From assembly GCF_006517175.1 (NCBI RefSeq), contig NZ_CP041186.1, positions 6,599,074-6,663,073 of the forward strand: a DNA stretch of 64,000 nucleotides. The letters run 5' to 3'. The notes beneath the pieces were generated by a model, which did no database searches, was not told the origin of the DNA, and worked only from the letters and a program-made list of their open reading frames with translations. This DNA is from Persicimonas caeni. Lineage in GTDB: Bacteria; Myxococcota_A; Bradymonadia; Bradymonadales; Bradymonadaceae. Positions 7,129 through 9,149 of this stretch are shown here, piece by piece (position 1 is the stretch's first letter; every line of letters begins with the position of its first letter). Position numbers and translations under genes: made by a program.

Positions 7129-7238
7129 GGCGGCACTTGGCCCCTCGAGATGCCTCTTAGCCGGGAAGGGGGTAGACGCGCCCGTTCTGCTGTCGATATT
7201 CGAGTTTAAGGGATATCAACGACATCAGGGGGCAGAAC

Positions 7239-9149
7239 ATGGGCGTGCAGGGGCATCACTCTGTTGGTGGCGCTGTATCGAAAAACGCGGGGCGTTTGAT
7301 CGCGGCGGGGGCCGCGGTGGCGCTGATCTTGTTGTGCTGGGTGGCGGCGGCAGGTGCGCTGCCCCGAGGGATCGTCGCCGAGCGCTACGTCGAGGGGCTA
7401 GCGAACCCCACGGCGATGACCATCGCTCCCAGCGGGGACATCTTGGTCACCGAAAAGGGCGGGGAAGTGCGTCTGGTGCGCGACGGCAACCTCGTGGCGG
7501 GACCGGTGGTGCGCTTTTCGCCCACGGTCAAGGGCCAGGCCGGTCTGCTGGGCATCGACGTCTTCGACGACTTTGCCGAAAGCGGTCGGTTTATCGTCGC
7601 CTACACTCCTGCCTCCGATCCGACACGCATCTGGTTGTCACGGGCGCGAATGACCCCCGAGGGCGGGGAGGTGCTCGAGGATCCTTGGAAGGTCTTGCCC
7701 AACAACCCCGACTCAGATCGCAACTATGCCGGGCGTGTCGAGGTGGCCGACGGCCACATCTATGTCGGCCTGGGCGACCTGGGGCGGCACAACGAGGCCC
7801 AGAGCACACGCCGGCTTCCGGGCAGCATTCTTCGCTACAACCTCGACGGCACGGTTCCCGCCGACAACCCCTTTGGGACGGCGGTGTATGCCTATGGGTT
7901 TCGCAACCCGCAGGGCTTCGAGACCGTCGGGGACGGCACGCTGTGGGTGGTCGACAGCGGCGAGACCGAACACGATGAAATCAGCCGCGTGGTCGCCGGC
8001 GGCAACTACGGTTGGCCGGTTGTCATTGGCCACTGCGACAATTACCCGCTGACCGAGGTGTGCGACGAGACCTCGTTGCTCGACCCTCACTACGAATTTC
8101 GTTGGCAGACGAGGGTGACCGGCGTGGCCGGTTATCGCGAGGGGCTGATGCCCGCGTTGCGCGGCAGCGTCTTTGTCACCGGGCGCCGCTACGGGGAGTT
8201 GCACCGACTGGTCTCCACCGCCGATGGCCGCCGTCTCGAGTTGGCCGTGCCCTTTTTCGTCTTGCCGGGCTCGGAGCCTCAGGCCGGCTTGGTCGACGTG
8301 AAGGTCGGGACCGACGGCGCGCTCTACGTGCTGGTCGGCGATACGCCCGCAGGTCAGATCTTGCGCATCGCCCCGCGCGAAGACGTGCTCGACCAGAACG
8401 CCATCCTCGAAGAGGGGACCGAGCTGCGGCCCGCCGATACTCCGGTGTGCACGGTCAGCCAAGTGGACGCGGCGGTGCCTTGGTCGCAGGGCGCGCTGCT
8501 CGTCATTTGCCTGGTGCTGCTCGTCTGGGCGCTTCGCCGCCGAGAGGTCCCGCGCGCAGTCACCATTTGCGCCTGCCTGCTGGCCGTGCTCACGCTGTGG
8601 AGCGCCAAGGTCCACGCCCAGGAGGCGCGCTGGGGCGTCAAAGCCGGCGCCAACGTGGCCACCGTCAGCGGAGACGATGTCGTCACCGCCAGCCTCGCGC
8701 CCGGCGTCACCGCGGGCGTAGCCTCACGCTTCGAGTTCAACGAGTATCTGGCCGTGGCGCCCGAGCTTATCTACGCCTGGAAAGGCACCGGGATCGACAG
8801 CGTCGACGACCGACACCTGTCTCATCACCTGACCCTGCCGGTCTTCATGGAGGGCAGGCTCAATTTCGGCTGGATCGAGCCGCGTCTGACGGCCGGCCCG
8901 GCGGCTACGCTGGTGTTGAGCGCGCGCACCGGTGACCAAATCATGACCGACCGGCTCAATCGTTGGGGCTTCGCCGTGGCGGGAGGGCTGGGGGCCGACT
9001 TTGGCTTCGGCAGCGGGATGATGACCGTCGATGCGCGCTTCGAGCGCGGGCTGACAGAGGTGTACGACGACAGAGCCACGCCGCACTACATTCGTACGCC
9101 GGAGAACTACAACAACGTGGCCTATCTACTTGTCGGGTATCTCTTCTAA
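7239..9149 (+). CDS. Glucose/sorbosone dehydrogenase-like propeller fused to a PorT-type outer-membrane barrel
   Basis: A 636-aa protein with two halves. Residues 1-45 are a signal segment. About 45-400 is a six-bladed beta-propeller of the PQQ-dependent glucose/sorbosone dehydrogenase type (motifs GFRNPQGF, GGNYGWP). Residues about 412-437 are a C-terminal-anchor-like segment: a preceding Cys, a hydrophobic helix, then RRRE. Directly after this, residues about 440-460 read as a second signal peptide ending VHA-Q. Residues 461-636 are a beta-barrel of the porin/PorT type with an aromatic C-terminus (YLLVGYLF). It looks like two formerly separate exported proteins in one frame. ATG 7239 follows AGGGGGC. 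Confidence 0.8.
   Translation: MGVQGHHSVGGAVSKNAGRLIAAGAAVALILLCWVAAAGALPRGIVAERYVEGLANPTAMTIAPSGDILVTEKGGEVRLVRDGNLVAGPVVRFSPTVKGQAGLLGIDVFDDFAESGRFIVAYTPASDPTRIWLSRARMTPEGGEVLEDPWKVLPNNPDSDRNYAGRVEVADGHIYVGLGDLGRHNEAQSTRRLPGSILRYNLDGTVPADNPFGTAVYAYGFRNPQGFETVGDGTLWVVDSGETEHDEISRVVAGGNYGWPVVIGHCDNYPLTEVCDETSLLDPHYEFRWQTRVTGVAGYREGLMPALRGSVFVTGRRYGELHRLVSTADGRRLELAVPFFVLPGSEPQAGLVDVKVGTDGALYVLVGDTPAGQILRIAPREDVLDQNAILEEGTELRPADTPVCTVSQVDAAVPWSQGALLVICLVLLVWALRRREVPRAVTICACLLAVLTLWSAKVHAQEARWGVKAGANVATVSGDDVVTASLAPGVTAGVASRFEFNEYLAVAPELIYAWKGTGIDSVDDRHLSHHLTLPVFMEGRLNFGWIEPRLTAGPAATLVLSARTGDQIMTDRLNRWGFAVAGGLGADFGFGSGMMTVDARFERGLTEVYDDRATPHYIRTPENYNNVAYLLVGYLF

Follow-up and report, generated by a model that had tools for sequence, protein, structure and literature searches.

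Cleavage of the MYXO-CTERM sorting tag by MrtX, and the requirement for its Cys, have been shown in Myxococcus xanthus (PMC11980579). The same paper terms ORFs with an internal MYXO-CTERM rare and presents MXAN_5598 as an atypical configuration that is likely a fusion; its authors suggest that genes have fused and that the N-terminal part is processed, putting cleavage at the internal tag forward as a proposal, and they liken MXAN_5598 to the overlapping TraA/TraB genes, in which a surface protein with a MYXO-CTERM precedes a barrel-OmpA partner (PMC11980579). MXAN_5598 carries an internal MYXO-CTERM and then an outer-membrane barrel in one ORF, as does the ORF analysed here, and one case of this arrangement has thus already been described; the passages of that paper dealing with MXAN_5598 do not discuss a second signal peptide.

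The fused frame and its parts

We analysed a stretch of 64,000 nucleotides from Persicimonas caeni (the window; contig NZ_CP041186.1, positions 6,599,074 to 6,663,073), in which a forward-strand ORF at 7239-9149 encodes 636 residues in one frame that runs without a stop through five segments. An RBS-like AGGGGG (7227-7232) lies 6 nt ahead of the ATG, and no sigma-70-like promoter was found within the ORF. The first segment is a putative signal peptide (residues 1-40, 7239-7358) with a helix modeled at residues 9-39 and a candidate cleavage site between AGA and L; both signal peptides and their cleavage sites were called by hydropathy and by eye. The second is a glucose/sorbosone dehydrogenase (GSDH) propeller (residues 54-376, 7398-8366), assigned by Pfam (PF07995, E 7.8e-55). 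The last is an outer-membrane beta-barrel (residues 461-636, 8619-9146), where OMP_b-brl_2 (PF13568) matches residues 460-609 (E 7.5e-13, 49.4 bits against a cut-off of 27) over profile positions 2-174 of 175, in agreement with the initial annotation, which had called the barrel complete. Stand-alone relatives of the barrel with signal peptides of their own also occur (L037, L038); L038 (G011:C25) starts close behind a serpin gene.

Between propeller and barrel, an invariant Cys (Cys404, codon 8448-8450), a hydrophobic helix at about residues 418-432 and an Arg cluster (RRR, residues 433-435, codons 8535-8543) together form a MYXO-CTERM-like tail (8448-8543), which is internal here, unlike the usual C-terminal position of the tag. 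The same arginines begin the segment at residues 433-460 (8535-8618) that holds the second signal peptide, identified from hydropathy, the codons and a junction HMM. The initial annotation had placed the tail at residues 412-437 and the signal peptide at 440-460; both elements are retained, with the tail repositioned as above and the signal peptide now spanning about 436-460, and its VHA-Q site stays as the candidate cut between A460 and Q461. The arginines are flanked by two hydropathy peaks, and AlphaFold2 gave a confident propeller and, besides the N-terminal helix, helices at 408-434 and 437-465 that are broken at the arginines. The barrel part has no usable AlphaFold2 model because its relatives are too scarce. 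The whole 636-residue protein found no relative among GTDB contigs, and an alignment-based search returned general GSDH proteins only.

The tail of the window protein has no match to TIGR03901 (the NCBIfam MYXO-CTERM model) even at E 10, and its link to MYXO-CTERM therefore rests on its orthologues. Three independent propeller orthologues of the same family (L031, L032 and L034) carry the same Cys, helix and Arg cluster at the homologous position and end with a stop at this tail, and the L031 tail scores 20.7 bits with TIGR03901, above the cut-off of 20. An HMM of such junctions built without the window ranked the window junction top within the window, but at only 11.2 bits (i-E 0.009), a score that a non-candidate ORF equalled.

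No barrel lies next to any of the three orthologues, unrelated genes coming next in the two that are full-length (L031 and L032), and a screen of both strands, covering 131 distinct GSDH ORFs of many different phyla, turned up no second propeller-barrel fusion. The predicted pairing of a GSDH propeller with a barrel is therefore seen only here among the relatives examined, and an ancestral adjacency of the two genes is unsupported, since the orthologues have no neighbouring barrel. The initial annotation would have counted separate genes in relatives, with read-through only here, against itself; this is what we found for the propeller-barrel pair, whereas the architecture recurs widely, as described below. 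A second GSDH paralogue in the same genome (L033:1275-2564) is apparently a lipoprotein and has neither tail nor barrel.

The sugar dehydrogenase proposed for the N-terminal part is borne out as a domain, but less so as an enzyme. The catalytic His of dehydrogenases with the GSDH fold (His144 of sGDH) is replaced in the window protein by Asn162 (7722-7724), whereas L031, L032 and most relatives have His there. Activity should therefore not be assumed and appears doubtful.

The initial annotation had explained the join as a fusion of neighbouring genes by stop loss, noting that the last Arg codon, CGA at codon 435, is one transition from TGA. The codon is as described; however, it is weak evidence alone, because a single change would turn several nearby codons into a stop as well. 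Loss of the stop at CGA is insufficient by itself: the sequence from the arginines up to the second signal-peptide core contains no ATG, GTG or TTG, so that the barrel would have no start codon left, and the join would have taken either a deletion or the loss of a start codon as well as a stop. The orthologues, with no barrel next door, likewise lend no support to a fusion of neighbours. We also rejected a frameshift or a sequencing error, the latter (an error whose correction restores a stop) having been named by the initial annotation as a refutation: the other two forward frames are stop-free from 8301 to 8718, so a single indel cannot restore a stop near the arginines, and ten further junctions of this kind occur in the same genome, which makes such an error unlikely.

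Internal tags in the genome and across the phylum

TIGR03901 gave 77 matches over the P. caeni genome, 50 of them above cut-off. Ten of the 64 tails that were read in context are internal, nine of these scoring above the TIGR03901 cut-off, and in all ten the frame leads straight from the arginines into a second signal peptide, which is either of type I or has a lipobox. Counting the window, this gives 11 junctions in the genome, a count that may fall short where tags are as degenerate as the window's. The fused ORFs include adhesin-CTERM-signal peptide-barrel-OmpA proteins (1516-2551 aa), a CTERM-signal peptide-barrel protein (647 aa) and CTERM-lipoproteins (1061, 1441 and 2178 aa), several of them with OmpA, cadherin-like or TSP3 domains (Pfam). 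One frame of 3055 aa (G000:C1:4107351-4116518, L220) contains MYXO-CTERM tags at two internal sites, with a lipobox signal peptide behind each, and thus comprises three units. The genome also encodes the myxosortase MrtP (L224:1480-2664; 392 bits against a cut-off of 250); we rejected an identification of this gene as MrtX, whose model scored below cut-off.

We built a junction profile from the 11 junctions of this genome and ran it on relatives and then on the phylum, taken to be Myxococcota in view of the MYXO-CTERM tags and MrtP. In 11 families of the phylum, 39 junctions were verified by translation; as 21 candidates were scored per genome, junction counts are lower bounds. Matches in other genomes of the phylum reached 1e-10, and the best match in 14 genomes outside it was no better than E 4e-4. 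A second profile, built from 38 junctions, again gave matches in several families, with by far the most in P. caeni, although its training set holds most junctions of the genomes searched.

A start codon is absent from the Arg cluster to the signal-peptide core in 24/39 verified junctions, and the distance from the Arg cluster to the end of the signal peptide is 19-32 aa, i.e. a normal signal-peptide length. The Arg cluster therefore appears to double as the n-region of the second signal peptide. The window junction shows this pattern, with an Arg cluster leading in frame and without a start codon into a signal peptide and a predicted exported protein. The tail and second signal peptide found here are more than chance, given the three independent orthologues with the tail and the 39 verified junctions. 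The predicted architecture, i.e. a MYXO-CTERM tag joined in frame to a new signal peptide, is not unique to the window and, because of the 11 sites in this genome and the recurrence across the phylum, looks like a regular route by which a single translation yields two surface proteins.

Fused and split forms of related families

A CTERM-lipoprotein family, represented in P. caeni at 4820564-4824889, has matches in 44/57 genomes of the class and is a single frame at every locus whose sequence was readable throughout (19 of 19). In one genome two fused paralogues lie in tandem (G027:C220:15626-23907; frames of 1545 and 1532 aa).

A CTERM-barrel family (P. caeni 3970291-3972234) is fused in 24 genomes, split into adjacent genes in 26 and unreadable in one (G023). 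The barrel tree implies about 10 changes between the fused and split states (bootstrap range 9-10), at least five of them forced by well-supported branches. In 14 split genomes there is a 4-nt overlap between the tag gene's stop and a start codon in the barrel frame (separate CTERM and barrel genes with this overlap include L300, L308, L315, L319, L324, L334 and L341-L343), and such a start/stop overlap is a typical sign of coupled translation. These natural fused and split pairs indicate that joins of this kind have repeatedly formed and come apart again.

Among the fused CTERM-barrel genomes, 8/24 have a helix-Arg tail without the Cys, and the hairpin join is therefore not limited to MYXO-CTERM. 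These Cys-less fused barrels are L317, L323, L328-L331, L333 and L345 (from G031, G037, G040, G028, G034, G048, G042 and G046).

Proposed processing, alternatives and known systems

We consider it probable (roughly 70%) that the ORF at 7239-9149 encodes a two-protein precursor of this recurrent kind that is cut by a myxosortase and signal peptidase I. The proposal draws on the open frame, the domains, the lack of an internal start, the recurrence, the conservation and the fused/split switching of the related family. The first signal peptide would export the propeller, and the MYXO-CTERM-type helix would then stop transfer, leaving the arginines in the cytoplasm, where they would both cap the sorting tag and provide the n-region of the second signal peptide. 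The latter would restart Sec translocation, forming a hairpin, and so export the barrel, which signal peptidase I would cut after VHA460 and free for the BAM pathway; in the lipobox forms elsewhere signal peptidase II would act in place of signal peptidase I. Cleavage at Cys404 by a myxosortase, for which MrtP is a candidate, would separate the propeller as a probably lipid-anchored surface protein. The predicted outcome is the same as for a pair of neighbouring genes, except that there would be a single start and synthesis would be fixed at 1:1. The part of the initial annotation that had two exported proteins joined at a tag and second signal peptide, and probably processed into two, is thereby supported.

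The alternatives differ in what becomes of the joined frame. If the barrel were made separately, by reinitiation or from an internal start, the open frame would be incidental; the in-frame GTG at 8514 (codon 426) would give a 35-residue signal peptide, and the 4-nt overlaps of the split relatives fit such coupling. However, no ribosome-binding site is visible ahead of 8514, there is no start past the arginines, most junctions elsewhere are similarly startless, and the open frames are maintained over the whole class, and we regard this explanation as improbable. A further explanation, and a somewhat less plausible one, is that the protein stays uncut with its internal helices intact, the fused barrel keeping the propeller at the outer membrane, as the initial annotation had also suggested. 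A single ORF with the barrel directly C-terminal is what this would require, but two strong hydrophobic helices and the arginines would have to cross the periplasm intact, and the split forms of the related family yield two separate proteins. A tether is also less likely than cleavage because the second unit in many fused relatives is a lipoprotein with a lipobox Cys, and no barrel that could act as a tether is present.

The join could, finally, be a recent and functionless accident of the strain, through stop loss or sequence error. The unfused propeller orthologues, with no barrel beside them, would be expected if this were so, and Asn162 suggests a decaying enzyme; yet one indel is insufficient, a start must have been lost besides the stop, and there are ten other junctions in the genome and further ones conserved across genera, so that this origin seems very unlikely. 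The precursor reading also extends beyond the window. It is about an even chance that the in-frame hairpin is a general polyprotein junction in Myxococcota, delivering surface proteins in sets of two or three at a constant ratio, switching repeatedly with pairs of genes that overlap by 4 nt, and joining proteins that are functional partners.

Bacterial polyproteins that depend on a C-terminal sorting tag and a signal peptide both placed inside the chain have hardly been described. If cleavage takes place as proposed, many single-gene annotations in the phylum would in reality represent two proteins, and the joined units would be candidates for proteins that work together, as in TraA/TraB-like pairs. 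The natural fused and split versions offer a ready test of the interconversion between translation coupling and fusion. The literature searched held no account of recurrence within one genome, of an Arg cluster shared with a second signal peptide, of lipoprotein second units, of a three-unit chain, of class-wide conservation or of repeated switching between fused and split forms.

The bacterial cytochrome b/c1 precursor FbcH of Bradyrhizobium gives rise to two proteins through a cut at a signal peptide within the chain, as proposed here, but it belongs to a respiratory complex and lacks a C-terminal sorting tag. The PQQ-type glucose/sorbosone dehydrogenases (PDB 2g8s, 2ism and 7cdy) belong by sequence to the same propeller family as the window protein; they have neither tail nor barrel, and the position of their catalytic His is Asn in the window protein. 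TraA/TraB of M. xanthus are alike in the order of a MYXO-CTERM surface protein and a barrel partner, but are two genes with overlapping ORFs (PMC11980579), whereas here there is one frame. Beyond MXAN_5598, as presented in the passages of that paper which concern it, the present analysis adds 11 junctions in one genome, recurrence across the phylum, second units that are lipoproteins, a chain of three units, and reversals between the fused and split states.
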